Source: Paraflavitalea pollutisoli
GTDB taxonomy: Bacteria > Bacteroidota > Bacteroidia > Chitinophagales > Chitinophagaceae
Assembly (NCBI RefSeq): GCF_029360705.1
Contig: NZ_JARKMX010000002.1
Location: 186,001 to 250,000, forward strand
Reading direction: 5' to 3'
Length of the DNA stretch: 64,000 nt
Positions within the stretch are counted from its first letter, which is position 1. Each line of letters starts with the position of its first letter. Below the pieces are notes generated by a model, which did not search any database, was not told the origin of the DNA, and saw nothing but the letters and a program-made list of their open reading frames with translations. Position numbers and translations under genes: made by a program. Shown here one piece after another: positions 5,672-63,757 of the stretch.

Positions 5672-7738
5672 TTACACATTATCTATCTGCCGCATCAACA
5701 TATCTACCTCATTTACAGGCTGTTGACAAGCATAATCCCGACACAGGAAAATGGCCGTGTCCGACGAATCAGGCTTGTTTACCAGCATGGGAAAATCCTG
5801 GTTTGTGGGTCCAGTGGGAGCGGATTGAAGTACGTGGATAGGCAGAAACCGGCGTAAAACATCCTCGCGATGCATTGCAAAATCCCCGCCAATAATCGCT
5901 ATCTCCGGGATCGTATAAATGAGTGCCTGGATCATCGTAGCCCATACTCCAAACGAACCAGGATACCGGCTGACCGTCTGCTGCAACAGGCTGCAGATCC
6001 TTACACTTCGTTCCCGCCAGGCCGGCACATCAAAAATGATACCCAGGGAATAGAGATTAATGGCCATCACCGCATTACCCGAGGGTACTGCCCCATCGTA
6101 CACTTCTTTCTTACGTACGATAATATCGGCCTGTCCGGTTGGTGTAAAGAAGAAAAAACCTGTTTCTGGCTCACTAAAGTGGTCAATTACCCGGCTGGCC
6201 AGGGCCTTGGCCGTATGCAAATACCCGGTATCACTGGTCACCTCCTGTAGCTGCAACAATGCCTGAATCAGGGCAGAATAGTCGTCCAGGAAGGCCGGAT
6301 ACCGTGCTACACCTTCTTTGTATGTATGATGAAAAGCGCCATCCGCCTGGTTGAATCGGCTTAGCAGGAAAGCCATATTGCGCACCGCCACATCCCGGTA
6401 ATGCTCGCTGCCCAGGGCCCCCGCCGCCTGGCTGAAGGCCAGGTTCATCAGGGCATTCCACCCCAGTAACTGTTTGTCATCGAGCAAAGGCCGGATACGC
6501 CGGTTCCGCACCTGCATTAATTTCCCCCGGCAACTGTCCATACGCCGCCACAACTCCTCCAGCGTAATCCCTTGTGCAGCAGCAAACGCAGCGGGTGCTA
6601 CCGGGCAATTCAGGATATTCTTATGCTCCCAGTTGCCTTCCGTCGTCACGTCGTAGAAGGCACAGAATAAGGTCGATTCTTCGCCCAGCAGGGCATCTAC
6701 CGTCGCTTTATCCCATACATAATACTTTCCTTCCTCCCCCTCACTATCGGCATCCAGGGCCGAATAAAAGCCATATTCCGGCGACAGCAGCTCCCGCTCC
6801 ACAAACGACAAGGTTTGCCTGATCGTTCGCTCGTACAGCGGATCACCCGTCAGCTGAAAGGCTTCACAGAGTACCGTCACCAGTAAAGCATTGTCATACA
6901 GCATCTTTTCAAAATGGGGCACCAGCCAGGCACCGTCGGTAGCATAACGGGCAAAGCCACCTCCCAGCTGGTCGTAGATACCGCCCTGGATCATCTTATC
7001 CAGGCTCAGACGAGCCTGCCGCAGGGCGTCCTCGTTCTTCGTATAGAAGTAATGATGGAGTAAAAACCGGATGGTAAAGGTTTGCGGAAACTTGGGCGCC
7101 TGTCCGAAGCCGCCCTCCTCCCGATCGGCATTTTTCATGACGTTGGTAAACAACAGGCGGGCTTTCTCCTTCGTGAAATGAGCTTCGAAGTCTTCGCCAA
7201 GTTCCTGCACGGATTGCAACCCAAATTCATTGGAGCGGACGAGGTGCTGGGTGAGGTTATCGGCCTGGGCCTCGATGGCGTCCTGTTTGTCGCGGTAAGC
7301 ATTGATCACTCCGTGCAGCACTTCCGTCCAGGAAGGCCGGTTGTACACTGCTTTGGGTGGAAAATAAGTGCCGCCATAAAAAGGCTTGCCGGCAGGTGTG
7401 AGAAAGACATTGAGCGGCCAGCCCCCACTCCCCGTCATCGTTTGCACGGCATCCATGTAGATGTGATCCAGATCGGGGCGCTCTTCGCGGTCGATCTTGA
7501 TGTTGATGAAATGCTCATTCATTATGGCGGCTGTAGCTTCGTCTTCAAAGCTCTCCTTCTCCATCACATGACACCAATGACAGGCGGCATAGCCAATACT
7601 GACGAGGATTGGCTTGTTTTCGGCGCGGGCACGACCAAGGGCCTCCTCCCCCCAGGGATACCAATCCACCGGGTTGTGAGCATGCTGCAATAAATACGGA
7701 CTACTTTCCTCGAATAACCGGTTGGTGAACTTACTCAT
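5672..7738 (-). CDS. DUF255 thioredoxin-fold protein (YyaL/SSP411 family)
   Basis: A protein of about 688 residues from the ATG at 7738 ([20 protein letters not shown]); the frame is open 15 codons further up but the family starts here. The N-terminal thioredoxin-like domain (about 1-165) carries [13 protein letters not shown] with Cys53 and Cys56, then [11 protein letters not shown] and [11 protein letters not shown]. The remainder is an (alpha/alpha)6-barrel of the N-acylglucosamine-2-epimerase type ([38 protein letters not shown]). The biochemical role of this family is not settled; a link to disulfide or carbohydrate chemistry is only suggested by the folds. It is preceded by hemD on the same strand. 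Confidence 0.9.
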
Positions 7739-31386: not shown

Positions 31387-31426
31387 GGATCGACAGCGTT
31401 CTCTGAGACCCCTTTCGATCTTTTTT

Positions 31427-48581: not shown

Positions 48582-49595
48582 ATGCCACACTTTGTGACGA
48601 TCAAGGACATTGCACGTGAACTCAACATATCCGTATCTACCGTTTCCCGGGCGATGCGTGACACCTATGATGTAAGTAAAGAGACCAGGGATAAAGTGCT
48701 GGCCATGGCGGCCAAACTGCATTACAAGCCTAATTTCAACGCGACGGGTCTTGCCAAGGGCAGCACCCATAATATCGGCATCCTGCTGCCCCGCGTTACC
48801 AACTATTATTTCTCTACTGCCATTACCGGTATTCAGCAGGTAGCCCTGGAGAAAGGTTATCATATCATCCTCTACCTGACGGATGATTCGCCCGAACGGG
48901 AACTGGATATTCTGCACAACCTGTCGCTGACCAGTGTGGATGGTTTATTGGTCTCTACTTCGTCTGCGGCTGAAACGTCTGCTCATTTCCAGGAAGTGAT
49001 CAAAGAGGGGGTGCCCGTCGTTTTCTTTGACCGGGTGGCGACCAATATTTATACTTCTAAAGTGATGCAGGATGATTTCAATGGCGCTTTTGCGACTGTT
49101 GAACACCTGATCGAGCAAGGCTACCGGAAGATCGCCCATGTATCCGGGCCAGTGGGACTGGCCATGAGCGCCCAACGACTGCGGGGCTATTTCGCAGCGC
49201 TGGAAAAACACCAGTTGCCCATCCGGGAAGAATGGGTACTTTTTTCCGGCTTTTCGCAGGAGGAAGGTGAGCAGGATGCTGAACGCCTGCTGGCTTTACC
49301 TGAAAGACCAGATGCTATCTTTGCCGCCAATGACCGCAAAGCCATCGGCTGTATGCTTACCCTCAAAAAGCATGGTATTGCCATCGGTCCTGAGATCGGT
49401 GTAGCTGGCTTTACGGGTGACCCGGTTTCTAAACTCATCACGCCAACGCTGACTACGATGGCAGAGCCCGCCTTCGAGATCGGGCGAAAAAGCTGTGAGC
49501 TGCTGCTCAAGCATATTGGCAAGAAAAATTTTATCCCCGAAGAGATTACTCTTCCCGGCACTTTATTTATCGGAGATTCTACAAAGAGGGGTTAA
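48582..49595 (+). CDS. LacI-family transcriptional regulator
   Basis: A protein of about 337 residues from the ATG at 48582 (MPHFVTIKDIARELNISVST). The N-terminal helix-turn-helix and hinge helix (DIARELNISVSTVSRAMRDT then KPNFNATGLAKGSTHNIGIL) are followed by a periplasmic-binding-type sensor domain (SVDGLLVSTSSAAETSAHF, VFFDRVATNIYTSKVMQDD, ERPDAIFAANDRKAIGCMLT). It should bind a palindromic operator with a central CG and release it on binding a sugar or sugar phosphate. The position next to the amino-sugar genes suggests it controls them. Its 3' end overlaps the converging Gfo/Idh gene by 17 bases. Confidence 0.93.
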   Translation: MPHFVTIKDIARELNISVSTVSRAMRDTYDVSKETRDKVLAMAAKLHYKPNFNATGLAKGSTHNIGILLPRVTNYYFSTAITGIQQVALEKGYHIILYLTDDSPERELDILHNLSLTSVDGLLVSTSSAAETSAHFQEVIKEGVPVVFFDRVATNIYTSKVMQDDFNGAFATVEHLIEQGYRKIAHVSGPVGLAMSAQRLRGYFAALEKHQLPIREEWVLFSGFSQEEGEQDAERLLALPERPDAIFAANDRKAIGCMLTLKKHGIAIGPEIGVAGFTGDPVSKLITPTLTTMAEPAFEIGRKSCELLLKHIGKKNFIPEEITLPGTLFIGDSTKRG

Positions 49596-50793
49596 TACCA
49601 TACTCAGGTTTCCATATTTGCGTAGTACCTGTTTCGATGGCCTTATTGGCCATGTGTACACCAATGGCGGCTATTTTACCGGTGGTCACGTTGGAGGCTG
49701 GCTGTTTGCCCTCCCGGATACAAACCGCGAAATCAATCAGGGCCGAGGTGGTAGGTTCATCGATGCCTTTGTTGTCGAACTTCAAGGGCACGGCATCACC
49801 CTGCGACCAGTTGGACACGGTAGCACCGGTAACGCCATCGACCACGCCTGTTGCTTTCTTCGCCCCTTCGGCATACAGGAATGCTTCTTCCCGTTGTATC
49901 TCGAGGGTGGCTTTAGTGCCGAGCACACGAATGGAATAACCACGGAACGCGTTGGACAATATGGAAGAGAAAGTAGCTTTTACGCCACCGGGGTATTGAA
50001 AGATCGTACGGATATTGTCCCAGGTCTCCCGTCCATCCTTCCAGTAGTCGATACCGCCCATACCTATTACTTTGAGGGGATGTTTATCGAGCATATAGTT
50101 GACCATGTCGAGTTGGTGCGCGCAGAGCTCGGCCATCAGTCCACCGGAATATTGTTTATACATACGCCAGTTCACGGCCCGCTCCATCGACGGTTCGGGT
50201 ACGGGGAAACGCCAGTTGGAGTTGCGGTGATACTGACATTCAAACTGTGTGACTTCCCCCAGCCATCCCGCGTCGATCACTTCCTTTGCCCGGTGGTAGA
50301 GCGCGTAGTACCGGTACTGGTGGCCGACCTGCAATACTTTCTTTTGCTTTCTGACAGCTTTCTCCAGTTCAATAGCCTGTGGTATGGAGTAGGTCATCGA
50401 CTTTTCGAGGTATACATGCTTGCCGGCATTGAGTGCATCGATGGCCATGGGATAATGCAGGTACAGCGGAGTGGCGATGATCACTGCTTCTATCTCCTTA
50501 TTCGCGAGCAGGGCTTTGTGGTCTTTGTAGGATTGGGCGCCAGGTGCAGCCAGAGCCATTGTTTTGGTAAGGCTGGGCTCATAGGTATCGCAGCAGGCAA
50601 CGAGTTGCAAGCCGGGCACGTTCTTCAGCAGGCGGGCAATACCGCCACCACGGGTGCCGCAGCCGATCAATCCTATTTTAACGGGTGTTGCTGCACCGGC
50701 TTGCATCCAGGCCGGCATGCCCGCTGCTAAGGCTGTACCGGTCAGGGCCAGCGCACCGGTTCCGAGAAAGGCTCTTCTTGTATATGGTTTCAT
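49579..50793 (-). CDS. Gfo/Idh/MocA-family oxidoreductase with Tat signal
   Basis: A 404-residue protein with a twin-arginine signal (YTRRAFLGTGALALTGTALA). The nucleotide-binding domain begins VKIGLIGCGTRGGGIARLL, and the sugar side carries IEAVIIATPLYLHYPMAIDA, HVYLEKSMTYSIPQAIELEK and VGHQYRYYALYHRAKEVIDA. These proteins bind NAD(P) and act on sugars or sugar-like compounds, here probably exported to the periplasm folded with its cofactor. The substrate is unknown. It is the last gene of a minus-strand operon after nagA (4-base overlap). Confidence 0.9.
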   Translation of the reverse strand: MKPYTRRAFLGTGALALTGTALAAGMPAWMQAGAATPVKIGLIGCGTRGGGIARLLKNVPGLQLVACCDTYEPSLTKTMALAAPGAQSYKDHKALLANKEIEAVIIATPLYLHYPMAIDALNAGKHVYLEKSMTYSIPQAIELEKAVRKQKKVLQVGHQYRYYALYHRAKEVIDAGWLGEVTQFECQYHRNSNWRFPVPEPSMERAVNWRMYKQYSGGLMAELCAHQLDMVNYMLDKHPLKVIGMGGIDYWKDGRETWDNIRTIFQYPGGVKATFSSILSNAFRGYSIRVLGTKATLEIQREEAFLYAEGAKKATGVVDGVTGATVSNWSQGDAVPLKFDNKGIDEPTTSALIDFAVCIREGKQPASNVTTGKIAAIGVHMANKAIETGTTQIWKPEYGINPSL

Positions 50794-51986
50794 ACTGCTG
50801 CGGTTTGTGTGGTGTAGACGGTGTGTCCCTTTACGATCGTTGTATCGATGTTGATGTTGTCGTCGAAGATAATGATATCTGCGTCGCGGTCTTTTGTGAG
50901 CGCACCCTTTGTATCGGCTATCCCCATTACGCGGGCAGGATTTTCTGTCATCATTTTTACGGCATCCTCCAATGAGACACCGGCCAGGCGGAGCATGGTA
51001 CGTATCAGGCGGTCGGCGGTGGCGATGCTGCCGGCAAAGGAGGTTCTATCGGGCAACATGGCCACCTCTTCATCTACGAGCACTTCCAATCCGCCCTCCA
51101 GCGGCCCCAGTATGCTTTTGCCGGGCGGCATCCCCGCCGCCCGCATGGCATCAGTGATGAGGACGGTATGTGCGATCCCTTTCACCTTGATGATAAGTTG
51201 CAGCAGGGCGGCGGGCAGGTGTACACCATCTGCTATGATCTCTGCATCGATATCATCCAGGAGGTATACCGATTCGATCACGCCGGCATAACGGCGCATG
51301 TCTTTGCGCGTAACGCCCGACATGGCCGAATAAAAATGTGTAGCCAGGGTATAACCTACTGCGCGTGCCTTTACCACATCGTCGTACAAGGCATCTGTAT
51401 GGGCGATGGCGGGCAAGATGCCGCGCTCTTTGATATATCGTCCAAACTCGATGGCTCCCGGCAGTTCAGGCGCAGCGCTCCAGCGTACAATATGCGGTGA
51501 ATAATCGAGTATAGCGCGGTATTCGGCGGGATCAGGATTCCGGATGTATCTCGGATCCTGGGCACCACGCTGGTTGAGCGCGAAGTAAGGACCTTCGAGG
51601 TGCATACCGATGAGATCAGCTCCCAGGTACTGCATCCCCTTTACCATGTCGTACGCGTCGAGCGTCTTGTAGAGTCCGCTTGCTTCGGCCGTGAGGGTGG
51701 TGGGCGTCATGCTCGTGGTACCATGGCGTGCATGGGTAGCAGCTATCTGTATAAAGGCTTCGGGGGTGGCATCCATGAAATCCGCATTGCCGCCACCGTG
51801 CACGTGTATATCGATAAAGCCGGGCGTAATATACTTACCGGCTGCGTCGACTGATGTATAATCCGCTGCGTCTGTATGCCGGTCGCTCACCTCCACGATC
51901 TTCCCGTTTTCGACATACACGATACCATCTCGAAGCCGGCCGCGGGGCGTCAGCACTGTGCCGTTGAATATTTTAAGCTTTTGCAT
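50790..51986 (-). CDS. nagA: N-acetylglucosamine-6-phosphate deacetylase
   Basis: A 398-residue amidohydrolase from the ATG at 51986 (MQKLKIFNGTVLTPRGRL); an ATG three codons upstream is also possible. Metal and catalytic motifs are FIDIHVHGGGNADFMD, GMHLEGPYFALNQRGAQDP, AIAHTDALYDDVVKARA, ATHFYSAMSGV and VLITDAMRAAGMPPG. It removes acetate from GlcNAc-6-phosphate to give glucosamine-6-phosphate in the cytoplasm. It overlaps the upstream permease gene and the downstream Gfo/Idh gene, so the three form one operon. Confidence 0.94.
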   Translation of the reverse strand: MQKLKIFNGTVLTPRGRLRDGIVYVENGKIVEVSDRHTDAADYTSVDAAGKYITPGFIDIHVHGGGNADFMDATPEAFIQIAATHARHGTTSMTPTTLTAEASGLYKTLDAYDMVKGMQYLGADLIGMHLEGPYFALNQRGAQDPRYIRNPDPAEYRAILDYSPHIVRWSAAPELPGAIEFGRYIKERGILPAIAHTDALYDDVVKARAVGYTLATHFYSAMSGVTRKDMRRYAGVIESVYLLDDIDAEIIADGVHLPAALLQLIIKVKGIAHTVLITDAMRAAGMPPGKSILGPLEGGLEVLVDEEVAMLPDRTSFAGSIATADRLIRTMLRLAGVSLEDAVKMMTENPARVMGIADTKGALTKDRDADIIIFDDNINIDTTIVKGHTVYTTQTAAV

Positions 51987-53328
51987 AGGGGGCATTCCCG
52001 TTTGTCTGTTTAAAGTTCCACTTTTTCAACCGGTATCCACGGAATGCATAAAAAATAAGGTAGGCATAGCAGGGAGCCAGTACCCAATAGGCGTCACGTA
52101 CGTGAAATTTATCGGCAAAATAACCGTAGAGCAGGGGCAGGATGGCATTGCCACAGAGGCCCATGACCATGATGGAGCCACCTAGTTTGGTAAAGCGCCC
52201 CAACTCCCGCAGGGCCTGCGACCAGATACCTGGCCATACGAGTGAATTGGCCAGGCCCAGCAATACAACAAACCAGATAGAGATATCCGTTTCGTGACCA
52301 AGGATATTCACCTTGCCGTGGGTCAGCACAATGAAACAGGTAAGTACCAGTCCGAGGATCACACAAAAACGGAAGGCGGTGAGCTGGCTTACGAACCGGG
52401 GCACGATCCAGATGCCGATGAAATACCCGGTGATGGTGGCGAATAAAGTATAGGAAGGAAATGTTTTGGCTTCGAGCAAGGTGAGCCCCATGGAACCGGC
52501 ATAACCAATGATGGTATCGATGGCGATGACCTGTGTACCTACGTGCACAAAGATGGCAATGGCGCCCAGTATGAGGTAGGGGAACTGGAAGATGCTGGTC
52601 TTACCCTGGTTCTGCTCGGCCACCGAGGCCGATTCTTTTTCCGTATCGATCTCGGGCAGGGGTGAATAACGCACCATCACGCCGAGGAGGAATAACACAC
52701 TGCCAACAATGGAATAGGGTACCACTACCCTTCTGATCAGCTGGTCGAGGGTCTGGGCCCGTTCGGCCTCTGCCATCAACGGAATACTTTTAAACAGCTC
52801 CGCATCGGTCGAGCGCAGGATAATGGCTGCAAAGATGATCGGCGCAATGATGCCCGCGCCTTTGTTGCAGATGCCCATGATGCTGAATCGTTGTGTCGCC
52901 TTCTCTATTGGACCCAGGATGGTGATGTAGGGATTGGCAGCCGTTTGCAGTACTGCCAACCCGGCGCCCAGTGAGAACAAGCCTACCAGGAAGATCCAGT
53001 AGGTACGGAAAAAAGCGGCGGGCACAAAAATGAAGGCGCCGACGGCCATGATCCAGAAGCCAATCATAATGCCTTTCTTGAACCCGATCTTTTTGAGCAG
53101 AAAAGAAGACGGAACGGAAATGAGCAAATACGATATGTAAAAGGCAAAGGCGACGAGGTAGGATTGAAAGTTGGTCAGCTCGCAGGCGATCTTGAAATAG
53201 GGGATGAGGATAGCGTTGATCCAGGAAACGAAACCAAAAATAAAGAAGAGCACACCGATGATGAGCATGGAGATCATGGTGTCGCGCCGGGAGAGCAAAG
53301 CAATATCGCCAGTAGCCTGTTGTTGCAT
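51973..53328 (-). CDS. MFS sugar permease (FucP/NagP-like)
   Basis: A 451-residue protein with about 12 helices. The opening IGVLFFIFGFVSWINAILIP and the FYISYLLISVPSSFLLKKIG, KKGIMIGFWIMAVGAFIFVP and SLGAGLAVLQTAANPYITIL segments are typical of the FucP/glucose-galactose/NagP branch, which are proton symporters. Given nagA directly downstream in the same operon and nagB in the divergent one, N-acetylglucosamine or N-acetylgalactosamine is the likely cargo. The upstream region with the divergent GH109 gene carries the 15-bp operator. Confidence 0.9.
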   Translation of the reverse strand: MQQQATGDIALLSRRDTMISMLIIGVLFFIFGFVSWINAILIPYFKIACELTNFQSYLVAFAFYISYLLISVPSSFLLKKIGFKKGIMIGFWIMAVGAFIFVPAAFFRTYWIFLVGLFSLGAGLAVLQTAANPYITILGPIEKATQRFSIMGICNKGAGIIAPIIFAAIILRSTDAELFKSIPLMAEAERAQTLDQLIRRVVVPYSIVGSVLFLLGVMVRYSPLPEIDTEKESASVAEQNQGKTSIFQFPYLILGAIAIFVHVGTQVIAIDTIIGYAGSMGLTLLEAKTFPSYTLFATITGYFIGIWIVPRFVSQLTAFRFCVILGLVLTCFIVLTHGKVNILGHETDISIWFVVLLGLANSLVWPGIWSQALRELGRFTKLGGSIMVMGLCGNAILPLLYGYFADKFHVRDAYWVLAPCYAYLIFYAFRGYRLKKWNFKQTNGNAPYAKA

Positions 53329-53428: not shown

Positions 53429-53443
53429 CGAGAACGTTATCGG
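53429..53443. promoter_or_regulatory. LacI-type operator, copy 1 (amino-sugar divergent promoter)
   Basis: The 15-mer CGAGAACGTTATCGG core (53429-53443) is near-palindromic around the central CG (CGA.AACGTT.TCG). It lies in the 186-base space between the divergent permease and GH109-type genes. The same 15-mer recurs at 61026, 63721 and 63743. Confidence 0.75.
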
Positions 53444-53486
53444 TCATTTATTCGCTGTTGCCCGTCCTTCCGACGGTGTGAATTGA

Positions 53487-53494
53487 TACATTTG
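53487..53494 (+). promoter_or_regulatory. Promoter element of the GH109-type gene
   Basis: TACATTTG matches TAnnTTTG, with the start near 53502, 12 bases before the ATG at 53514. Operator copy 1 lies about 45 bases upstream of it. Confidence 0.5.
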
Positions 53495-53513
53495 GAGGTT
53501 AAATGACTTACTG

Positions 53514-54926
53514 ATGAACAATACGCGCAGGAATTTTCTCAAACTATCAGGCGCCCTGGGTGCCGGGCTGGCCAGCGGCGGCTTTTCGGGCGTACTGGGT
53601 GCAGAGCAGGCGATCGACACGTTTTATGCCGAGGAGGGCCAACCAGCCGTCTTCAATATGTGTGGGTTTGCGGCGCCCAAACTGGATACTGTCCGCATTG
53701 GTTTTATCGGTACGGGCAACCGGGGAAAGGCTGCGGTACGTCGTATGTCATTTATCGAAGGCGTGGAGGTAAAAGGTATCTGCGACCTGCGGCCGGAAAA
53801 AGCCCAGGGTGCGGCCAAAGATATGCGCCCGGGTCATCAGCCCACCTTTTACACAGACCAGGAGGATGCCTGGAAGAAAATGTGCGACCGCAACGATATC
53901 GACCTCATCTACATTGCTACGCCCTGGGCGCTGCACACGCCGATGGCCGTGTATGCGATGCAGCATGGCAAACATGTGTGCGTGGAAGTACCTGCTGCCA
54001 AGACCATCGAGGAATGCTGGCAGTTGGTGAACACGTCTGAAAAAACGAAGAAACATTGCATTATCCTCGAGAATTGCTGTTATGACTTCTTCGAGATGCT
54101 GACCCTCAATATGGCCCGTCAGGGTTTCTTTGGGGATATCGTGCATTGCGAAGGCGCGTATATCCATGATCTGGCAGCCGGCAATTTCTCGAAAGACAAA
54201 TACTATAAGCTCTGGCGACTGGAAGAGAACAGCAAACGCAATGGCAATCTCTACCCTACCCATGGTCTTGGGCCTGTAAGTCAGATCATGAACCTGAACC
54301 GCGGCGACAAGATGGATTACCTGGTGTCGCTGCAGAGCAATGATTTCATGATGGGTGCGATGGAAAAGGAACTGCTGGAAAAAGACAAGGCTACCTATGC
54401 TCCCTACGCCAACCGACATTTCCGGGGCAATATGAATACCAGCGTAGTGAAGACCGCCAAGGGCCGCTCGATCATGATACAACATGATGTGACCACACCA
54501 CGGCCCTACTCCCGCCTGCACCTCGTAAGCGGCACAAAAGCGATGGCCCAGAAATATCCGTTGCCCGAACGCATTGCCGTAGGTGATGACTGGATGAAGG
54601 AAGCCGAACTGGATGAACTGAAGAAAAAATTCCAACCGGCCATCACCAACTTAATGGGTGATATTGCCCGCAAGTTTGGTGGGCACGGCGGCATGGACTT
54701 CCTGATGGACTGGCGTACCATCGACTGCCTGCGCAACGGTCTGCCCGTGGACATGGATGTATATGATGCGGCGGCATGGAGCTGCATCGGCCCGCTGAGT
54801 GAATGGTCGGTAGCCCATCGTTCCAACTCGATCGATGTACCTGATTTTACCCGGGGCGCCTGGAAAACCAATAATCCGGTAGACATTTTACTCACCCAAG
54901 CCGGCAGTACCAAAGTGATCGTTTAA
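53514..54926 (+). CDS. GH109-like Gfo/Idh family protein (alpha-N-acetylgalactosaminidase-like), Tat-exported
   Basis: A 470-residue protein with a Tat signal (NTRRNFLKLSGALGAGLASG). It shows the GH109 pattern: VRIGFIGTGNRGKAAVRRMS, VKGICDLRPEKA, LIYIATPWALHTPMAVYAM, KHVCVEVPAAKTIEECWQLV and CIILENCCYDFFEMLTLNMA, then YPTHGLGPVSQIMNLNRGDK. GH109 enzymes use bound NAD to cleave alpha-N-acetylgalactosamine by an oxidation-elimination route. Whether this one is a hydrolase or only an oxidoreductase is not proven by motifs. It is followed 32 bases later by nagB. Confidence 0.85.
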   Translation: MNNTRRNFLKLSGALGAGLASGGFSGVLGAEQAIDTFYAEEGQPAVFNMCGFAAPKLDTVRIGFIGTGNRGKAAVRRMSFIEGVEVKGICDLRPEKAQGAAKDMRPGHQPTFYTDQEDAWKKMCDRNDIDLIYIATPWALHTPMAVYAMQHGKHVCVEVPAAKTIEECWQLVNTSEKTKKHCIILENCCYDFFEMLTLNMARQGFFGDIVHCEGAYIHDLAAGNFSKDKYYKLWRLEENSKRNGNLYPTHGLGPVSQIMNLNRGDKMDYLVSLQSNDFMMGAMEKELLEKDKATYAPYANRHFRGNMNTSVVKTAKGRSIMIQHDVTTPRPYSRLHLVSGTKAMAQKYPLPERIAVGDDWMKEAELDELKKKFQPAITNLMGDIARKFGGHGGMDFLMDWRTIDCLRNGLPVDMDVYDAAAWSCIGPLSEWSVAHRSNSIDVPDFTRGAWKTNNPVDILLTQAGSTKVIV

Positions 54927-54958
54927 AACAATTATTAAACCTATAATCTCCGCGTAAC

Positions 54959-55717
54959 ATGAAGATTGTTGTAAAAGAAACTCCGGCAGCGCTTGGCGCA
55001 GCCGCGGGAAAGGATGCTGCTGACCGTATCCGAACGGTGATCGCCGAAAAAGGACAGGCCAATGTGATCCTGGCCACCGGTACGAGTCAGTTTGAAACCC
55101 TGCGTTACCTGATCGATCAAACCGATATCGATTGGAGTAAGGTGGTGATGTTTCACCTCGACGAATACATAGGACTGCCGGTGACGGCCCCCGCCAGTTT
55201 CCGCAAATACCTGCAGGAGCGTTTCCTGGACAAGGTAGCTCCGCTGAAAGCCGCTTATCTCGTGAACGGCGAGGCGGCCGATATCGAGGCAGAGTGCAAC
55301 CGCCTGGGCAAGCTGATCACCGAACACCCCATCGATATAGCGCTGGTCGGTGTTGGCGAAAATGGACACCTGGCCTTCAACGATCCTCCCGCCGACTTCG
55401 CTACTCCTGCTCCTTATATCGTCGTGAACCTCGACGCCCAATGCCGCAACCAGCAATTTGCCGAAGGTTGGTTTGCGACGATCGATGACGTTCCGAAACA
55501 AGCGATCAGCATGTCGGTACGCCAGATCATGAAGTCGAAAGCGATCATCTGTTCTGTACCGGATGAAAGAAAGGCTACTGCGGTACGCAACTGCCTCGAG
55601 CGTGAGATCAGTAATCAATTCCCGGCCAGTATTCTGCGCGAACATGCGGATTGCGCGTACTATCTCGATAGCGCTTCAGCTTCGTTGCTGCAGCCAGCGG
55701 GCGAAAAAGTATTGTAG
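54959..55717 (+). CDS. nagB: Glucosamine-6-phosphate deaminase
   Basis: A 252-residue protein. Family motifs are VILATGTSQFETLRYL, VVMFHLDEYIGLPVTAPASF (catalytic Asp) and ALVGVGENGHLAFNDPPADF (active-site loop). It converts glucosamine-6-phosphate to fructose-6-phosphate plus ammonia, the step after NagA. It is in one unit with the GH109-like gene. The hexosamine kinase needed before NagA is not in the window. Confidence 0.93.
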   Translation: MKIVVKETPAALGAAAGKDAADRIRTVIAEKGQANVILATGTSQFETLRYLIDQTDIDWSKVVMFHLDEYIGLPVTAPASFRKYLQERFLDKVAPLKAAYLVNGEAADIEAECNRLGKLITEHPIDIALVGVGENGHLAFNDPPADFATPAPYIVVNLDAQCRNQQFAEGWFATIDDVPKQAISMSVRQIMKSKAIICSVPDERKATAVRNCLEREISNQFPASILREHADCAYYLDSASASLLQPAGEKVL

Positions 55718-55810
55718 TTTTTAAGGACTGGCCTGTACCGATCAGGTGTGGGCCGGTTCACTGTTGGTCATAAGTACCCGTTTGATGACAAATGCACAGG
55801 AGAACCACCT

Positions 55811-55855
55811 GCAAAAAATCAACGGCCGCCCAGTTTGGACGGCCGTCTTCGTTTT
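55811..55855. terminator. Bidirectional terminator between nagB and susD
   Basis: ACGGCCG-C-CCA (55822-55832) and TGG-A-CGGCCGT (55836-55846) form a stem with one mismatch around GTT. It has an A-run on the left and a T-rich tail on the right, between converging genes. Confidence 0.8.
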
Positions 55856-55870
55856 CGGTAGTGACAGATC

Positions 55871-57652
55871 TTAATATCCGTAGTCTTGCGAAAGACGGTA
55901 GTTGGACTCGATGGCCGATTGCGGTATGGGCATCAGCTCTCCTTTATTGGGCGTAAACAATTGCGCCACATTGGTGACCCAGGCGCTGGTAATAGACGCT
56001 ACCCAGTTGATGCGGGTAAATCCACTGATCGCCGATGGTGATGCTTTGTACAACGAATTACCATAGACGATGGTGGCGGAGCCCGTCTTGTAAAACATGT
56101 GCTGGGGCACTTTATCATAGGGTGCCTGCCGGTTCAATAGCTTCGTATAGTTGGCCCTGGTCTCTTCGATCTTCTGTGCGAGCAGGTTCCAGCGGATGAG
56201 ATCGTATTTACGAATCCCTTCTCCGCCAAATTCCCAGAACCGCTCGTTTACAATAGCCGTAAAGAAGGCAGCCTTATCGGTGGGTGTGGCACCGATGTTA
56301 CCCGCATTGGCCCCAAACCCTCTCTTCCTGACTTCTTCATAGGCCGCTGTGGCAGCGGGGGTAGGCCCATTGTTTAATTCATTCTCCGCTTCCGCGAACA
56401 TCAGCAACACATCCGAGAAACGCAGCAAAGGCCAGTTGATGCCCAGTTGCTGGGTAGTAGAGGTGGGCGCCGGATTGATCCAGTCGGCCCGAAACTTTCC
56501 ACTGGTCATGTTGACCAGCGTCTGCAAGGTCTTGGTTTTATCGGCGTTGTTGTAATAGGGCGCCGTCGTCACATCGCGGCGCTGGTCGAGCGAATCAAAG
56601 GAATAAAAATACGTAGGCACGATCCGGATAGAACTATTGCCGAGCTGACCAGAATTACCTTCTACATAGAAGCGTGGCCCATCGTAATATCCAAGATTAC
56701 CCGTAAGTCCCTTGGCCATGGCCAGTTCAAAGATCACCTCGCCGAAGGGGTCTATTTTGTACGAGTCGAGACCATCTTTGAAGACTGACTGAAAGCTGGG
56801 ATTGAGGGTATGAATATCGCGGCGCTGCATGATATCGAAGCATTCATCGCGGGCGATCTTATAATAAGTCGGGAAGTCGGACCGCCGTTCCATTTGGTTG
56901 GAACCACGGCGTAACGAGTAACCACCCCGGAAGAGCGCAATACGGGCACGCAATCCTTTCACCGCCGCTTTCGTGATCCGCTCATCGATGTTCACACCGG
57001 CTTCATTGCGCCAGGGCACGAGGTCCGCAGCCGTTTTGAGATCAGCGAGTAGCCGATCGTAAATACTGTCCCTGTCTGCTTTGGGCAGGAACAGGTCGAC
57101 CTGGTCGATGGAAGGTTCAAACTGTGCCGGCACATCGCCCCAGTTGCGGATCAGTTCGAGGTAATACAAGGCGCGCAGTGTCAGCGCTTCACCCTGCAGG
57201 CGTTTTAGTTGTTGCTGTTCCAGCGCGCTGCCACCCGTGTACTGCTGCATACCCGGGATGTTCTTGATGCAGGTATTGGCGCGTTCGATGCCCACATAGA
57301 GCAGCTGGAAAGGGCCGGGTAGTTGTGCATTCGTTGACCGGTAGTTGTACCGGGAGAGATCGCGTGAACTGTTGTCGGGCGCCGAGGTATTGGTCACCCC
57401 GATCATTTCGTCGGTATCGTAGGGATACATGAGGCTCAGACGGCTGCCATAGCCCTGCAACCCGGTAACGGCTTCATAGGCGCCCATTACCGCCGACGTA
57501 GCATTGGCTACACTATTGAATACATATTCTTCATCAAAGGCCGACTTAGGTTCTTTGTTGAGCAGCTTCTTGCAGGAGGTGGTGGTGATGAACAAGCAGG
57601 CACCGGCGGTGATCCAGGCTGCTGCAGTGCGATATAGGGAAAGTGTGTTCAT
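55871..57652 (-). CDS. SusD/RagB-family nutrient-binding lipoprotein (pectin locus)
   Basis: A 593-residue lipoprotein (signal then TTTSCKK, lipidated Cys27). Family marks are LQGEALTLRALYYLELIRNW, LRFSDVLLMFAEAENELNNG and NERFWEFGGEGIRKYDLIRW. It forms the lid over the SusC channel encoded 15 bases upstream. The neighbouring PL1 lyase and esterase suggest pectic oligosaccharides as ligand. Confidence 0.93.
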   Translation of the reverse strand: MNTLSLYRTAAAWITAGACLFITTTSCKKLLNKEPKSAFDEEYVFNSVANATSAVMGAYEAVTGLQGYGSRLSLMYPYDTDEMIGVTNTSAPDNSSRDLSRYNYRSTNAQLPGPFQLLYVGIERANTCIKNIPGMQQYTGGSALEQQQLKRLQGEALTLRALYYLELIRNWGDVPAQFEPSIDQVDLFLPKADRDSIYDRLLADLKTAADLVPWRNEAGVNIDERITKAAVKGLRARIALFRGGYSLRRGSNQMERRSDFPTYYKIARDECFDIMQRRDIHTLNPSFQSVFKDGLDSYKIDPFGEVIFELAMAKGLTGNLGYYDGPRFYVEGNSGQLGNSSIRIVPTYFYSFDSLDQRRDVTTAPYYNNADKTKTLQTLVNMTSGKFRADWINPAPTSTTQQLGINWPLLRFSDVLLMFAEAENELNNGPTPAATAAYEEVRKRGFGANAGNIGATPTDKAAFFTAIVNERFWEFGGEGIRKYDLIRWNLLAQKIEETRANYTKLLNRQAPYDKVPQHMFYKTGSATIVYGNSLYKASPSAISGFTRINWVASITSAWVTNVAQLFTPNKGELMPIPQSAIESNYRLSQDYGY

Positions 57653-57667
57653 TGGTTCAGATTTGCA

Positions 57668-60600
57668 TTATAAGGAAAGATTGAGACCGAAGAAGAAGGC
57701 ACGGCTTCTTGGATAGGCCGAATAATCGACACCAGGCGTTAGCGGTGTTTGCCTTCGTGCATTCACTTCCGGATCGTAGCCACTGTAGCCGGTAAGTACG
57801 GCAATGTTATTGACCGTGACATAAGCACGCAGGTTACCCATCTTTGCTTTCTTCAAAAGGCTTTGCGGGAAGGCATATCCGAGGGTAATGTTGTTGAGGC
57901 GCAGGAAGGAGCCGTCTTCCATGACCCAGGAGGTCGGATAGAAGGCCCCAGCACCGGCGATGGGTTGCCAGATCTGTGCATTCTTGTTCAGTTCCGCCAG
58001 TAGGTCGGGCGCCACGCCGGTCACCACTTGTTTGCCACCAACTGTCGTTACGCGCTGTACGATATCACCCGCGTCATCCACGGTACGCCAGCGGTCCTTC
58101 ATGATCTCGAGCATATTGGTGTGGCGGGAATAAGCGTTGGTAAACTCAATCTTGTTGGCGTTGTAGATGGTATTTCCATATACAAAGTTGACGAATATGC
58201 TGAGGTCGAAGTTTTTGTAATTGAACTGGTTCAACCAGCCTCCTTCGAATTTGGGCGTAGCATTACCAATGATGGTCTTATCGCTCTCATCGATGATGCC
58301 GTTGCCATCGAGGTCTTTGAGCTTCATCCAGCCGGGTTGGGCGATCCCGATTGCTCCGCCGACATCGGTCACCCCTTTCTTCAGGGTATAGGTAGTGGTA
58401 GCCACATCGTAATCGAAGTCATTGACGGTGTAGAAACCATCATTTACATACCCATACATGGAGCCTACCGGGGACCCTGTTTTCACGATAAAATCTGCCG
58501 GCTGGCCCGAAATACCAAAACCCGAACTGGCATAGAAGTAATCGAGATAACCTGTCAGTTTCTCCACTTTGTTGCGGTTGAAGGCGATATTGAAATTGCT
58601 GTTCCAGGAAAAACTCTTTGCCTGCACGATGGCTGCACTAAGGTTGAGTTCAATTCCTGTATTGGAGGTGGTTCCTACATTCTGCAATTGTTCGATCTGT
58701 CCGGAACTGACTGGGATGCGAATCGGAATGAGCAGATCATGCACGGTATTCTTGTAGGCGTCTGCCGTTAACTGGATGCGGTTGTTGAAGAGGGCGACAT
58801 CGAGGCCAATGTTCCTCGACACAGTGGTTTCCCATTTGAGGCGGCTGTTGGCCAAACTATTGGCTACATAGCCGGGATTGAGTCCTTCATTGAGCGGATA
58901 TTGCACCGTGGCTGAATAGGTATTGAGGTAGAGGTAATCATCGATGCGGTTATTTCCTGCCTGTCCGTAGCTCGCCCGCAGTTTGAGATCGGACAGCCAG
59001 GTCATTTTATCCATAAAGGATTCTTTGGAGATGCGCCAGGCGAGCGAAGCCGAGGGGAAATATCCCCAACGCTGGTCTTCGGCAAATTTGGAGGAACCAT
59101 CTGCCCGGATGCTGACACTCGCAATATATTTCCCGTCAAAATCATAATCAGCCCGGGAGAAGAAAGACAGCAGGGCGCTTTCTGTAATACGCGACTGTGG
59201 ATACAGTGGCACCGTTGATCCCAGACTCAACTGGCCAAAGGCTTTTTCCGGGGTCACCGATTCGGGGAAATAGCGCAGCCTGCTTTCTTCCCTGTGGGTG
59301 TTGGTGGTATACAGTTCCTGTCCCGCCATTACAGAGAGTCGGGAGTTGCCCGCTGTATGTTTGAAGGTCAGTACGTTTGAATTGTTGAAGGAGGTGCGGG
59401 GCAACTCGATCATCGAGATCAGGGGCAGTGAGGCTCCGTTGAGGCGTGCATTGGAGGTAATGCTACCGTCGAAAGAGCGTCTGTCTTGCGTATTTCGGTC
59501 TACCCCAACCGTTGACCGGAAGGAGAACTGCTTGCTGATGGCGTAGTTGAGGTATCCGCCAATGTTTACTACCTCGGTCCTTCTTTCGCGCCACTGTGCA
59601 TTGTTGAGCAGGATGGGGTTGATGATGCCCAGCCCATTGCCGGTATTGGTAGCATCGTAGTAATCTTCGTCATCTACCACCTCGACATTGCCTTCTTCCA
59701 GCATGAAAGGACGGTACTTGACCGTATGACGCAATCCATTGTAGGTAGATCCGCCTTCGTCGGAAGAGCCGGCCCCGGTGATGTTTTCGCGGCTATAGCG
59801 AAAGTTTAGTCCTACGCGTAATTTATTATTTGCCTTGTGATCGAGCTTGAAGTTGAACAGGGTTCGCTTGAGGCCCGAGTTGATCATAATACCATCTTCC
59901 TCATTGTGCGTAAAGCTGAGGTTGAACTGTGTTGTTTTGTTGCCGCCCGACAGCCCCACATTGTGGGTTTGCATGAGGGCGTTGCGGCCGAATATTTTAT
60001 CCTGCCAATCTACGGCTGGTATTGTTTTGTAGCGTTCCAGATCATCGCCATACAGGGTGGTGAAAGCATTGGTTTCTTCGTTGGTAAACCGGCTGCGTTC
60101 AAACTGGTAGCTGATAAAATCGGAAGGACTCAGGAGTTTGAGCGACCGGGGCAACTGGCGGATGCCCGCCATGCCATTGTAGGTCAATTTTGTTTTGCCC
60201 TCTTTTCCACTTTTGGTGGTGATGATCACCACGCCATTGGCGCCGCGTGCGCCATAGATGGCTGTAGACGCAACATCTTTCAAAACATCGACTGATTCTA
60301 TGTCTTGCGGTGACAAGCCGGCAAAGCCATCTTCTACCTGTACGCCGTCGATGATATAGAGTGGCGAATTGTCTTGAGTAATGGAGCCGCCGCCACGGAT
60401 CCTGATGGAAAAATCGGAACCGGGCTGTCCTTCCGCACTGGTGATGCGAACACCGGCGAGGCGACCGGTCAGGGCTTCGGCTACGGAATTGACGGGTACA
60501 TCGCGCAGCTGTTTGGCCCCGACGGAGGAGACGGCACCAGTGAGGTCTTTTCTTTTCACGGTGGTATAACCTATTACCACCACATCCTCAATCTCTTTGA

Positions 60601-60949
60601 TATCGATGGCCAATTGGATGGAGAGTTCCGTTCTTCCTTTTACCGCTTCTTCCAGGGTGGTAAAACCCGCGTGCGAAAATACCAGTACGGTGTTGGTTCC
60701 ATCCGCCTTGATGGTGAAGGCGCCTTGCTGATCGGTTAGTGCGGAGGTCGTGCCGCCCTTGATTTTCACGGTGACACCAGCGATGGGTTTATTGTCTTCG
60801 GCGGATGTAACAACGCCTTTAACGGTCGTTGGCGTTTGCGCGATGGTAAGCATTGGGTGGAGCAAGCAGGCAAGCAGTAACAGGACACCACTTAACCACC
60901 GGTGGCAAGCAAGCATTCGTACGCAGGCATAATGTTCCAAATACCTCAT
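57668..60949 (-). CDS. SusC/RagA-family TonB-linked outer-membrane channel (pectin locus)
   Basis: A protein of about 1093 residues; an internal ATG at 60916 (MLACHRWLSGVLLLLACLLH) is an equally good start, giving a tighter signal peptide. It shows the carboxypeptidase-like domain (TTVKGVVTSAEDNKPIAGVT), a TonB box area (IEDVVVIGYTTVKRKDLTGA), the plug (IRIRGGGSITQDNSPLYIID, then DVLKDVASTAIYGARGANGV) and a barrel ending in SRAFFFGLNLSL. It imports sugar fragments with its SusD partner. The 15-bp operator copy at 61026-61040 lies 77 bases upstream of the start, in the correct place to control it. Confidence 0.94.
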   Translation of the reverse strand: MRYLEHYACVRMLACHRWLSGVLLLLACLLHPMLTIAQTPTTVKGVVTSAEDNKPIAGVTVKIKGGTTSALTDQQGAFTIKADGTNTVLVFSHAGFTTLEEAVKGRTELSIQLAIDIKEIEDVVVIGYTTVKRKDLTGAVSSVGAKQLRDVPVNSVAEALTGRLAGVRITSAEGQPGSDFSIRIRGGGSITQDNSPLYIIDGVQVEDGFAGLSPQDIESVDVLKDVASTAIYGARGANGVVIITTKSGKEGKTKLTYNGMAGIRQLPRSLKLLSPSDFISYQFERSRFTNEETNAFTTLYGDDLERYKTIPAVDWQDKIFGRNALMQTHNVGLSGGNKTTQFNLSFTHNEEDGIMINSGLKRTLFNFKLDHKANNKLRVGLNFRYSRENITGAGSSDEGGSTYNGLRHTVKYRPFMLEEGNVEVVDDEDYYDATNTGNGLGIINPILLNNAQWRERRTEVVNIGGYLNYAISKQFSFRSTVGVDRNTQDRRSFDGSITSNARLNGASLPLISMIELPRTSFNNSNVLTFKHTAGNSRLSVMAGQELYTTNTHREESRLRYFPESVTPEKAFGQLSLGSTVPLYPQSRITESALLSFFSRADYDFDGKYIASVSIRADGSSKFAEDQRWGYFPSASLAWRISKESFMDKMTWLSDLKLRASYGQAGNNRIDDYLYLNTYSATVQYPLNEGLNPGYVANSLANSRLKWETTVSRNIGLDVALFNNRIQLTADAYKNTVHDLLIPIRIPVSSGQIEQLQNVGTTSNTGIELNLSAAIVQAKSFSWNSNFNIAFNRNKVEKLTGYLDYFYASSGFGISGQPADFIVKTGSPVGSMYGYVNDGFYTVNDFDYDVATTTYTLKKGVTDVGGAIGIAQPGWMKLKDLDGNGIIDESDKTIIGNATPKFEGGWLNQFNYKNFDLSIFVNFVYGNTIYNANKIEFTNAYSRHTNMLEIMKDRWRTVDDAGDIVQRVTTVGGKQVVTGVAPDLLAELNKNAQIWQPIAGAGAFYPTSWVMEDGSFLRLNNITLGYAFPQSLLKKAKMGNLRAYVTVNNIAVLTGYSGYDPEVNARRQTPLTPGVDYSAYPRSRAFFFGLNLSL

Positions 60950-61025
60950 AATTCAAGAGTTAGTGGTGAATAACAAGTTTAATCAGATATTCAATAGGAG
61001 GAGGTAGAATGGCCTGGTTTATTCG

Positions 61026-61040
61026 CGGTAACGTTCTCGG
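61026..61040. promoter_or_regulatory. LacI-type operator, copy 2 (before susC of the pectin locus)
   Basis: CGGTAACGTTCTCGG, whose reverse complement CCGAGAACGTTACCG matches copy 3 in all but one base. It is in the 106-base gap between the PL1 gene and the SusC gene, upstream of the latter. Confidence 0.75.
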
Positions 61041-61055
61041 TATTTCAGGCTGCCA

Positions 61056-63644
61056 TTATTGTCTGACGAACACGGTTTTTTCCTGCTGTTGTCCATTCCG
61101 GAAAATAAGTACATAGGTCCCTTGCAACAACTGGTCTATGTTGATGCTGGTGCGATCACGGCCTGCAGGCACTGCTTGCTCAGCTACCTGGTTACCGGTG
61201 ATGGTGAAGATACGGATGCGGGCCTGTACGGCAGCGGGTTGGTGCTTTACAAACAACTGTTTCCCGGCAGGATTGGGATAAACGGTGAGTGCCGGTATCG
61301 CCGCCTCGCCGGCAACTGCGTGTACAGCGGATTGCAGTACCGGTTTTGTGGTAAGCAATTCGTGGGCGTTGTTCACCGATTGCGTAGCGCTGAATACCGT
61401 GCTACCCGTACCATCGATGCGCTGGCTGCCGATCTTGTAATAGAGCTGTTGTGCAGGAGCTGCATAATCGTCGAATGCATATCGCACCGTATTGATGTTG
61501 GCATCCGTCTCGCTGAGTTTGGTGAAGTTCACATTGTCTGTTGAACGGTAAAGGGCCAACCGGAACTGGTCTTTGGCCCAATCGGTCTGAACTGTCAGGC
61601 GAACACTGTCTGCCCCCACGATGGCAGCCTGTACGGTTGTGAATGCCACGGGCTGATCGGGCGATTGAACGCCATTTAGGTAGTTCTCCAATTGTGTAAA
61701 TCCATTTATGGCCCAGTCATTCGCATTGACCCCGAGTGTATCGTTGTTGCCTTTAACCATGGCTTCCCACCAGTTGGGAAGCCCATCGTTATCGGTATCG
61801 TCGGCGTAAGTGGTCGACGACAATACCGGCCATCCCCCTACGCTGTTCTGGCTGTCGATCATGCCGGAAGGGGTACCCATCCCTGCTGCCTGGTAGCTGC
61901 TGTCGCCATAGGTAGCAGTGCCGGTACGGGTTTCGTGTATGATGCGTCGGTCGACGGTATCGCGGCGTGGCAGGGAAGCGCCGGCAGTGGCCGTGACGGA
62001 TTCAAAAGCGGCCACTGCTGTTTCTGTAATTACGGGTGCGATGTGGAAGGCCGTATCGGATTTGCCAGCGGCCAGGGCCACCGCGGCACCGGGCGAACTA
62101 TCGGGGTGTACACCAAAACGCCAGTTATTGGTGGCCGTGTCGGTGGTTTCAATGACACAGCTATAGCCATCGACGTAATTCCCTTTGATGTAAAACTTAC
62201 CGCCTCGGGTGGTATCGCCACCGGTTACGGTATAGGTTGTGTACAAGAGGATCCGATGCCGGCGATTGGACGTAGCGCAACTGCTACTGCCGGTGGTAGC
62301 TGGCCCGGGTTTGTAATAATTATTGACCATATTGTGCTGACCACCTGTGCCACCGTAGGCGGAGCCTACCCAATTGTAGACGACGTTGTTGCGGAAGTCG
62401 ACGTATTCTTTTTCCGGCTGCCCGGTAGCTGCGCTGCCAGAGAAACGCGGATTGCGGTTGCCATTGTGGGCAATGAGGTTGTGGTGGAAGGAGGCATTTT
62501 GTCCACCCCAGATACCTCCGTAGCCGTGCGGTGTGGCTTTGTCGTGAATGGATTGGTACAAGGCTTCGCTGAGCATGCTCCATTGCAGGGTAAAATCGGC
62601 AATGGCATAGAACGACCCCAACTCATCGGTCGACCAACTCAGCGAACAATGATCGATGATGATGTTGCGGTAGGGGTTACTGGCCGGACTGCCGAAGCTG
62701 TTGTACATCGCGTCGACCACTTTGGTCGTATCGCCGGGATTGATGATGATATCACCCGGACGACTGCGCAGATAACGGATGATGATATTATTGGCCATGA
62801 TGCGTACGCCATAGTTGGCGAGGCAGATGCCATCTCCCGGGGCTGTTTGCCCGGCAATGGTGATATTGTCGCGCTGCATTGTAAGGGGCGATAGCAGGTT
62901 GATGGTACCAGACACTTTGAAGAGAATGGTACGATTGGGCTGGCTCACGGCATCGCGTAAGCTGCCGGCGCCACTGTTGTTGAGGTTGGTCACATAGTAA
63001 ATGCTGCCTCCTCTGCCGCCACTGCTATGACGGCCGCCCCCTTCTGCACCCGGGAAGGCGACCTGCAGCGAATCAGCCGTCATGCCGGCAATCTGTACAT
63101 CTTTCGAAACGAGGTATCGGCCTGTCAACGCGGTGGTCGTCCAGGGATATACCCGCAGGCGAAAGGTATTGCCGGCTGGCACTGCGATATTCAGTCCGCT
63201 GTAGGTAAGTGCCGAGGGAACGCTACCAGACACCAGGGTTTGTGCGGCGGCCAGGTCATTGAATGTGGTACCATTTACCGACCAGCAGATACGGGCCCGG
63301 CCTGCAGAAGAAGAATTGAAGCTTAGTGACAGGCCGATCGTATTGATGTAGTAATTGGCTACGCCGTTGGGGGCTACGGTATATTCCACGTAGCGACTGT
63401 TGTTGAAGCCCGTTTCGGCAGGCCACGCGCCGGTGCCATCGGGCAGTATGCGTTGCCCTCCATTGGCGGAGAGGTAATTGTTAACGACAAGTCCGGTGAG
63501 TGTTTGTGCACCGGCTGAGAGTTGGCCGGAGACCGTTGACTGCTGGGTCGCCGTCAACGGCCAGGACGCGGTAGCCTGTGCGGAAGCATGGTGGTATCCG
63601 ATCGCTGTTGCCAGCGATAATAGCAATGCCTTAACCTGAACCAT
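61056..63644 (-). CDS. Secreted PL1-type pectate lyase with type IX sorting domain
   Basis: An 862-residue protein with a signal peptide (MVQVKALLLSLATAIGYHHA). Residues about 25-190 are a beta-sandwich module. The pectate-lyase beta-helix runs from about 195 (AFPGAEGGGRHSSGGRGG) to about 640, with LRDAVSQPNRTILFKVSGTI, NNIIIRYLRSRPGDIIINPG and IIIDHCSLSWSTDELGSFY. A fibronectin-III-like segment follows (about 665-770). The last 75 residues, from LTVYPNPAGKQLFVKHQPA to QQQEKTVFVRQ, are a type A type IX secretion sorting domain. It should be exported through the machinery to which gldKLMN belong and cleave homogalacturonan at the cell surface or outside. Confidence 0.92.
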   Translation of the reverse strand: MVQVKALLLSLATAIGYHHASAQATASWPLTATQQSTVSGQLSAGAQTLTGLVVNNYLSANGGQRILPDGTGAWPAETGFNNSRYVEYTVAPNGVANYYINTIGLSLSFNSSSAGRARICWSVNGTTFNDLAAAQTLVSGSVPSALTYSGLNIAVPAGNTFRLRVYPWTTTALTGRYLVSKDVQIAGMTADSLQVAFPGAEGGGRHSSGGRGGSIYYVTNLNNSGAGSLRDAVSQPNRTILFKVSGTINLLSPLTMQRDNITIAGQTAPGDGICLANYGVRIMANNIIIRYLRSRPGDIIINPGDTTKVVDAMYNSFGSPASNPYRNIIIDHCSLSWSTDELGSFYAIADFTLQWSMLSEALYQSIHDKATPHGYGGIWGGQNASFHHNLIAHNGNRNPRFSGSAATGQPEKEYVDFRNNVVYNWVGSAYGGTGGQHNMVNNYYKPGPATTGSSSCATSNRRHRILLYTTYTVTGGDTTRGGKFYIKGNYVDGYSCVIETTDTATNNWRFGVHPDSSPGAAVALAAGKSDTAFHIAPVITETAVAAFESVTATAGASLPRRDTVDRRIIHETRTGTATYGDSSYQAAGMGTPSGMIDSQNSVGGWPVLSSTTYADDTDNDGLPNWWEAMVKGNNDTLGVNANDWAINGFTQLENYLNGVQSPDQPVAFTTVQAAIVGADSVRLTVQTDWAKDQFRLALYRSTDNVNFTKLSETDANINTVRYAFDDYAAPAQQLYYKIGSQRIDGTGSTVFSATQSVNNAHELLTTKPVLQSAVHAVAGEAAIPALTVYPNPAGKQLFVKHQPAAVQARIRIFTITGNQVAEQAVPAGRDRTSINIDQLLQGTYVLIFRNGQQQEKTVFVRQ

Positions 63645-63720
63645 AACCAGTCTTTTTTTGGTTCCTTCAAGTCTACGCCCTTATTTCTGTTTTCCGATAC
63701 ACCGGACAGGGGTTTATCTC

Positions 63721-63735
63721 CGGTAGCGTTCTCGA
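63721..63735. promoter_or_regulatory. LacI-type operator, copy 4
   Basis: CGGTAGCGTTCTCGA; its reverse complement TCGAGAACGCTACCG fits the motif with one change in the centre. It lies between the divergent lyase and esterase genes. Confidence 0.65.
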
Positions 63736-63742
63736 AATGGTG

Positions 63743-63757
63743 CCGAGAACGTTGCCG
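63743..63757. promoter_or_regulatory. LacI-type operator, copy 3
   Basis: CCGAGAACGTTGCCG, in inverted orientation to copy 4 with centres 22 bases apart, about two DNA turns. Both copies lie between the divergent lyase and esterase genes. Confidence 0.7.

Follow-up and report, generated by a model that had tools for sequence, protein, structure and literature searches.

The stretch of DNA analysed here, a window of 64,000 nucleotides, carries four copies of one short near-palindrome spread among amino-sugar and pectin-type genes, and the question raised by this locus is which regulator owns the four sites and how two such sets of genes came to share them. The main reading, which we consider likely as a whole, is that a pectin-type locus has been rewired to an amino-sugar repressor of the LacI family. 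The gene cluster extends from 48.6 kb to approximately 570 bp beyond the window end, in the order lacI (forward), gfo, nagA and nagP (reverse), GH109 and nagB (forward), susD, susC and a PL1-like lyase gene (reverse), and an esterase gene (forward). Each of five inferred transcription units has one of the four sites facing its start, and the two loci distinguished in a preliminary description of this DNA are therefore treated as one 16-kb cluster with the following features.

48582..49595, plus strand: LacI-family regulator, proposed cluster repressor; ATG at 48582, open reading frame (ORF) from GTG 48558; Pfam LacI HTH and Peripla_BP_3 above cut-off
49579..50793, minus strand: Gfo/Idh/MocA-family oxidoreductase (gfo), by Pfam; a 65% homologue adjoins the LacI gene in relative G177
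50790..51995, minus strand: nagA, N-acetylglucosamine-6-phosphate deacetylase; TIGR00221 above cut-off
51973..53328, minus strand: nagP-like MFS transporter; best NCBIfam match NagP_SO3503, below cut-off; gluP subfamily model above cut-off
53429..53442, plus strand: operator 1, between nagP-nagA-gfo and GH109-nagB; exact match, second-highest relatives-only matrix score
53514..54926, plus strand: GH109-family protein (Gfo/Idh fold); PF21252 and Tat signal
54959..55717, plus strand: nagB-like glucosamine-6-phosphate deaminase; PF01182; best NCBIfam hit TIGR00502, under its cut-off
55871..57652, minus strand: SusD-like protein; PF07980
57668..60949, minus strand: SusC-like TonB-linked outer membrane transporter; TIGR04056 above cut-off, and SusC tree
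61026..61039, minus strand: operator 2, 76 bp upstream of susC; exact match, highest relatives-only matrix score
61056..63644, minus strand: PL1-like lyase, 862 aa, with T9SS sorting tail above cut-off; phmmer match to PfPL1 (9buj), E 3e-56; PelZ model below cut-off
63721..63734, minus strand: operator 3, 76 bp upstream of the lyase gene; exact match, also matrix-scored
63744..63757, plus strand: operator 4, 56 bp upstream of the esterase gene; exact match, also matrix-scored
63814..64000, plus strand, running about 572 bp past the window: SGNH/CE12-like esterase, 252 aa, read across the window end

The LacI-family gene was found as the preliminary description had placed it, save for the possible GTG start, and its product has an N-terminal helix-turn-helix and a periplasmic-binding-like effector domain (PF00356 and PF13377, both above cut-off). 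Standing 100 bp upstream of nagP and 71 bp upstream of GH109, operator 1 faces both nagP-nagA-gfo and GH109-nagB, which places an operator before nagA, nagB and nagP as in a NagR-type regulon; no site was found upstream of lacI itself, which counts against the main reading. The adjacent SusC/SusD pair together with degradative enzymes makes the cluster a polysaccharide utilization locus. The gene after GH109 is nagB-like and on the plus strand, correcting a minus-strand ORF at 54941-55645 that overlaps it, has no family match and is probably spurious. The esterase matched YxiM (2o14) and rhamnogalacturonan acetylesterase (1deo) in phmmer searches and is presumably SGNH/CE12-like. The genes that follow downstream (for a sigma factor, a protein that Pfam does not match and an M28 peptidase) look unrelated to the cluster.

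A pattern scan detected four exact copies of CGAGAACGYTRYCG in the window, each intergenic, and no further exact copy in the 8.76-Mb genome (16 contigs). These correspond to the four intergenic 15-mers reported earlier upstream of locus genes, from which they differ by one end base only, leaving a 14-bp core. They are near-palindromes with a central CG upstream of genes, and the resemblance to LacI-family operators that had been pointed out was seen in the window and in relatives alike. The earlier statement that no copy occurs elsewhere in the window held for exact copies only, as a weaker match with one mismatch is present at 31391-31404; this was rejected as a fifth operator on its low matrix score of 12.5. 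At up to two mismatches the window contains eight matches to the core (one place being counted on both strands), compared with a mean of 2.03 and a largest value of 6 in 100 shuffled windows.

The genome scan that the preliminary description had proposed as a check spoke for the exact copies and against the weaker matches. With at most one mismatch 22 places were found, the four exact ones being the window sites, and a reversed control pattern gave 26, so that the 18 one-mismatch places stand at chance level. The wider palindrome CGRBAACGYTVYCG gave 15 strand matches versus 7 for its control, at nine distinct places, namely the four window sites and five others. Off-site places inspected (the 18 with one mismatch and three from the wider-palindrome scan) fell within an ORF in 18 of 21 cases, and the one-mismatch places were rejected as extra regulon members because of their chance-level frequency and mostly coding position. 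One of them, L005 (G000:C1:360011), is intergenic and stands before a gene that from its start we take to encode a 6-phosphogluconate dehydrogenase; its membership of the regulon is unproven and the match may be due to chance. A matrix built from sites of relatives only (23 intergenic sites, with two more in called ORFs omitted) ranked the four window sites first, at 21.2-24.2 with the next best at 12.9, with some circularity in the result, since a window-derived pattern had served to collect the relatives' sites. Inspection by eye for promoter boxes near the sites gave no clear result.

The genome has 18 LacI-family genes, and comparison with relatives strongly supports the local one as putative owner of the four sites. 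In this respect the earlier proposal of one regulator over two loci is supported, but the loci proved to be one contiguous cluster whose parts also occur together in relatives. The window LacI is matched at E ≤1e-90 in 14 of the 294 genomes of the family sample, its own among them, and the 13 orthologues, 53-67% identical to it, form with it one 14-member clade with support 100/100 in a tree of 56 LacI proteins. None of the four other sampled genomes of the same genus has a close orthologue (best 40%), which counts against the main reading, and a scan of named genomes, reaching close relatives only, returned one locus, a 40% relative in Odoribacter. The DNA around the 13 LacI orthologues, 236,875 bp of which 89.9% is coding, contains 13 palindrome sites, every one between genes or at a gene edge; 200 shuffles gave a mean of 0.065 and a maximum of 2, and 46 control loci (some overlapping) around other LacI genes gave one site in 168,408 bp. 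In 9 of the 13 relatives the fetched DNA around LacI contains a match to CGAKAACGYTRYCG with no more than one mismatch. Three others (G213, G257 and G094) have two-mismatch sites only, before nagB, and G277 has no site near LacI, all of which counts against the main reading. A one-mismatch site upstream of nagP was seen on contig 1 of G277 (L206), a contig other than that of the LacI gene, and suggests that the LacI may act there in trans.

An order-wide search matched the window LacI in 8 of 396 genomes, of which five were already known and three were new and served as a held-out set. All three held-out orthologues have a site adjoining LacI (one exact, two with one mismatch), and conservation of the site in relatives with the same regulator, an earlier suggestion, was thus seen in both samples. 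One of the three, G544, belongs to another family (48% identity), and nothing in its 10.8 kb matched a nag gene, which counts against the main reading; in G569, also one of the three, nagB itself contains an additional one-mismatch match. Relatives yielded 25 sites with one mismatch or none, of which this and one other lie inside called ORFs, again a point against; the other is in G122, where the ORF was probably called too long. Among the NagP loci (the 30 best of those listed with a locus), the site occurs in 5 of 14 from genomes with a window-type LacI and in 0 of 16 from genomes without one; its absence from the remaining nine, which counts against the main reading, is in part because the operon starts elsewhere.

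SusC homologues with 43-60% identity were found in 99 of the 294 genomes (the window's included) at E ≤1e-250. The family's pectin-type locus, as seen on contig C14 of the same genome and in relatives, is like that of the window in its homologous SusC and SusD and, among ten homologous regions fetched, in a lyase homologue (eight) and an esterase homologue (five). It differs in its operator, CGGGAACGATTGCG, in often having another LacI, and in a pectinesterase, confirmed as such in both genes tested (G216 and C14). On C14 the LacI own_L028 lies beside a locus with an exact CGGGAACGATTGCG, the pectinesterase and a lyase, plus GH28 and an altronate-dehydratase-family gene within approximately 30 kb. 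An orthologue of own_L028 (66-96%) is close by in six of the ten fetched regions, and none was found within 20 kb in the other four. The best 30 SusC loci comprise four of the window clade and 26 others, and of these 26, 24 have CGGGAACGATTGCG with two mismatches or fewer in the 700 bp before SusC (20 exact), in a count that includes some loci off which the consensus was read and several close relatives (five of genus g15). The exceptions are G207, which has no CGGGAACGATTGCG, and G049, with an exact copy further upstream. The pectin-type loci of the family are probably controlled by another LacI, and the C14 LacI likely has a wider pectin regulon.

On the SusC tree, which has a midpoint root and weakly supported deep forks, the proteins of the window, G177, G099 and G122 form a clade (support 100/99) inside the pectin-type group. 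With at most two mismatches and within 700 bp upstream, none of these four loci has CGGGAACGATTGCG; G122 has a three-mismatch match, and the window susC has no match there even at three mismatches, in which it departs from the LacI-controlled pectin-type loci of the family. All four carry an amino-sugar-type site with 0-1 mismatch, and the combination of lacking CGGGAACGATTGCG and carrying this site was found in 4/4 of the clade and 0/26 of the others. Both operators are missing from G207, the sister of the clade, a point against the main reading, and likewise from a second SusC homologue of the own genome, on C6. On another branch, the site before susC in G164 is three mismatches from both consensuses and is possibly an intermediate. 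The pattern fits a single replacement of the operator, and a replaced operator would therefore mean a replaced regulator. The coupling of GalNAc/GlcNAc with pectin use claimed in the preliminary description accordingly narrows to one pectin-type locus, possibly still acting on pectin, that the regulator appears to have taken over; since homologous loci have a different operator, and often a different LacI, the regulator does not couple the two uses generally.

The composition of the cluster in relatives is variable. Homologues of all ten window genes, including lacI, gfo, nagA, nagP, nagB, the GH109-family protein and the esterase, are present in G177, with identities of 60% for SusC, 68% for SusD and 56% over 850 aa for the lyase. 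The same SusCD and esterase occur beside lacI, nagP, nagA and nagB in G122 and G099, with no lyase match in the fetched DNA of either. In the fetched DNA of the 13 relatives, nagB homologues were found in 11, nagA in seven and nagP in seven, and the SusCD modules attached to the regulator's loci differ.

In the mechanism proposed, the LacI encoded at 48582-49595 would be a NagR-like repressor, scattered among genomes of the family, that binds the 14-bp near-palindrome CGAKAACGTTRYCG before each of the five inferred transcription units; an amino-sugar-derived signal, perhaps GlcNAc/GalNAc or a 6-phosphate, would release it. The SusCD-lyase-esterase part would be related to the family's common pectin-type locus with operator CGGGAACGATTGCG, and in the one SusC lineage of the window, G177, G099 and G122 the amino-sugar operator would have come to stand in place of CGGGAACGATTGCG, moving a pectin-type locus into the amino-sugar regulon. 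The sites, the LacI clade, their co-occurrence and the operator difference along the SusC tree were computed directly; from these we infer binding, repression, effector, substrate and direction of change.

That the motif is merely clustered by chance is hardly credible: one-mismatch matches do occur at chance level genome-wide, but four exact intergenic sites fall within approximately 10.3 kb and are repeated beside orthologous regulators, held-out ones included, and the shuffle and held-out tests already oppose it. The sites before susC, the lyase and the esterase might instead be bound by the C14 LacI own_L028, or by both proteins, with the amino-sugar LacI controlling the nagP and GH109 units only. 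The helix-turn-helix segments of the two LacI proteins are similar, and the arm adjoining the pectin operator, e.g. TGATAACGTTGCCG, resembles the amino-sugar operator, occurring with one mismatch in 9 of the 26 canonical SusC loci; this counts against the main reading, and the two proteins may therefore overlap in specificity. Several canonical loci have the pectin operator overlapping the amino-sugar-like arm at a 12-bp shift, an overlap through which the switch could have arisen and which may allow cross-binding. We nevertheless think binding by the C14 LacI unlikely, as the half-site CGAGAACG is common to the four window sites and in relatives is also found beside the amino-sugar LacI or nag genes, and CGGGAACGATTGCG has no match anywhere in the window at up to one mismatch. 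Upstream of susC in L120-L144 and L150-L157, CGGGAACGATTGCG is conserved in most, in several as a double site with 12-bp-shifted overlapping arms, and amino-sugar-type sites at the same 12-bp spacing were seen in G099 (L094:1186-1211, 6734-6771).

A different substrate is conceivable, namely that the cluster is a dedicated system for a glycan of uronic acid and N-acetylhexosamine, not pectin, whose regulator senses a component of that glycan. This is a tentative proposal, compatible with the rewiring of a pectin-type locus, and the probabilities of the two overlap. In G200 (L098:9573-19951, L108:48-7780), SusCD, an esterase-like protein, GH109, nagB, nagA and nagP are joined in one direction, behind an amino-sugar operator, with galacturonate-type catabolic genes. 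Of the products of these, a tagaturonate reductase passes its NCBIfam cut-off, a second protein is placed by Pfam in the altronate dehydratase family, and a third resembles KDG kinase but scores below the cut-offs. The G200 SusC lies outside the window clade, and the latter groups with pectin-type loci, which speaks for pectin. The window cluster proteins have no pectinesterase or GH28 match in Pfam, unlike C14. The second match of the lyase, a weak one, is VexL, the structure of which contains an N-acetylgalacturonic acid trisaccharide product according to the excerpt of PMC11229556, but the lyase is far nearer to PfPL1 (9buj), pectin-active according to the same excerpt (3e-56, over residues 193-451, versus 2e-4 by phmmer), and its R397-N-P-R400 aligns with PfPL1 and the canonical-locus lyases as the R-x-P-R of PL1 pectate/pectin lyases. 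It is also possible, though we would not favour it, that the amino-sugar repressor captured the pectin-type locus because the two LacI operators share half-sites, that the locus now serves a glycan of galacturonate and N-acetylhexosamine, and that G200 shows the same strategy with its genes arranged differently.

LacI control of N-acetylglucosamine genes in Proteobacteria and of uronate genes in Bacteroides is already known from the excerpted sources. According to excerpts of PMC5343134 and PMC2996990, NagR is a LacI-family repressor of N-acetylglucosamine genes in Proteobacteria (Shewanella and Xanthomonas), with TonB-dependent receptors in the regulon of two Xanthomonas species, in which nagAB and nagP are under NagQ and not NagR. 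The regulon proposed here differs from that of NagR in its SusCD, PL1-like lyase, esterase and GH109. In Bacteroides, regulators of uronate or amino-sugar genes include the LacI proteins UxaR, KdgR and UxuR and the ROK protein NanR (excerpts of PMC3878776 and PMC4052901); there the sialic acid/GlcNAc regulator is of the ROK type and a hybrid two-component system governs the pectin locus, whereas one LacI is proposed here for both. A literature search of titles and abstract openings gave, among the matches listed, no description of this LacI clade, of its operator or of the operator change. In this cluster the exchange of repressor at a polysaccharide locus would be traceable, as a tree shows both the old operator and the new; the cluster predicts the kind of signal for the LacI clade and is a candidate system for using a glycan that mixes uronate and amino sugar.

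In relatives, GHL15-family and GH42-like proteins are encoded near nagB (L089:2893-4122, L090:13663-16975, L094:2482-4557) and are candidate enzymes acting on an amino-sugar glycan. In the own genome, the pectin operator pattern with at most two mismatches gave 14 strand matches versus 1 for its control, and one exact copy besides that of C14 lies on C15 (G000:C15:2858596-2858612).
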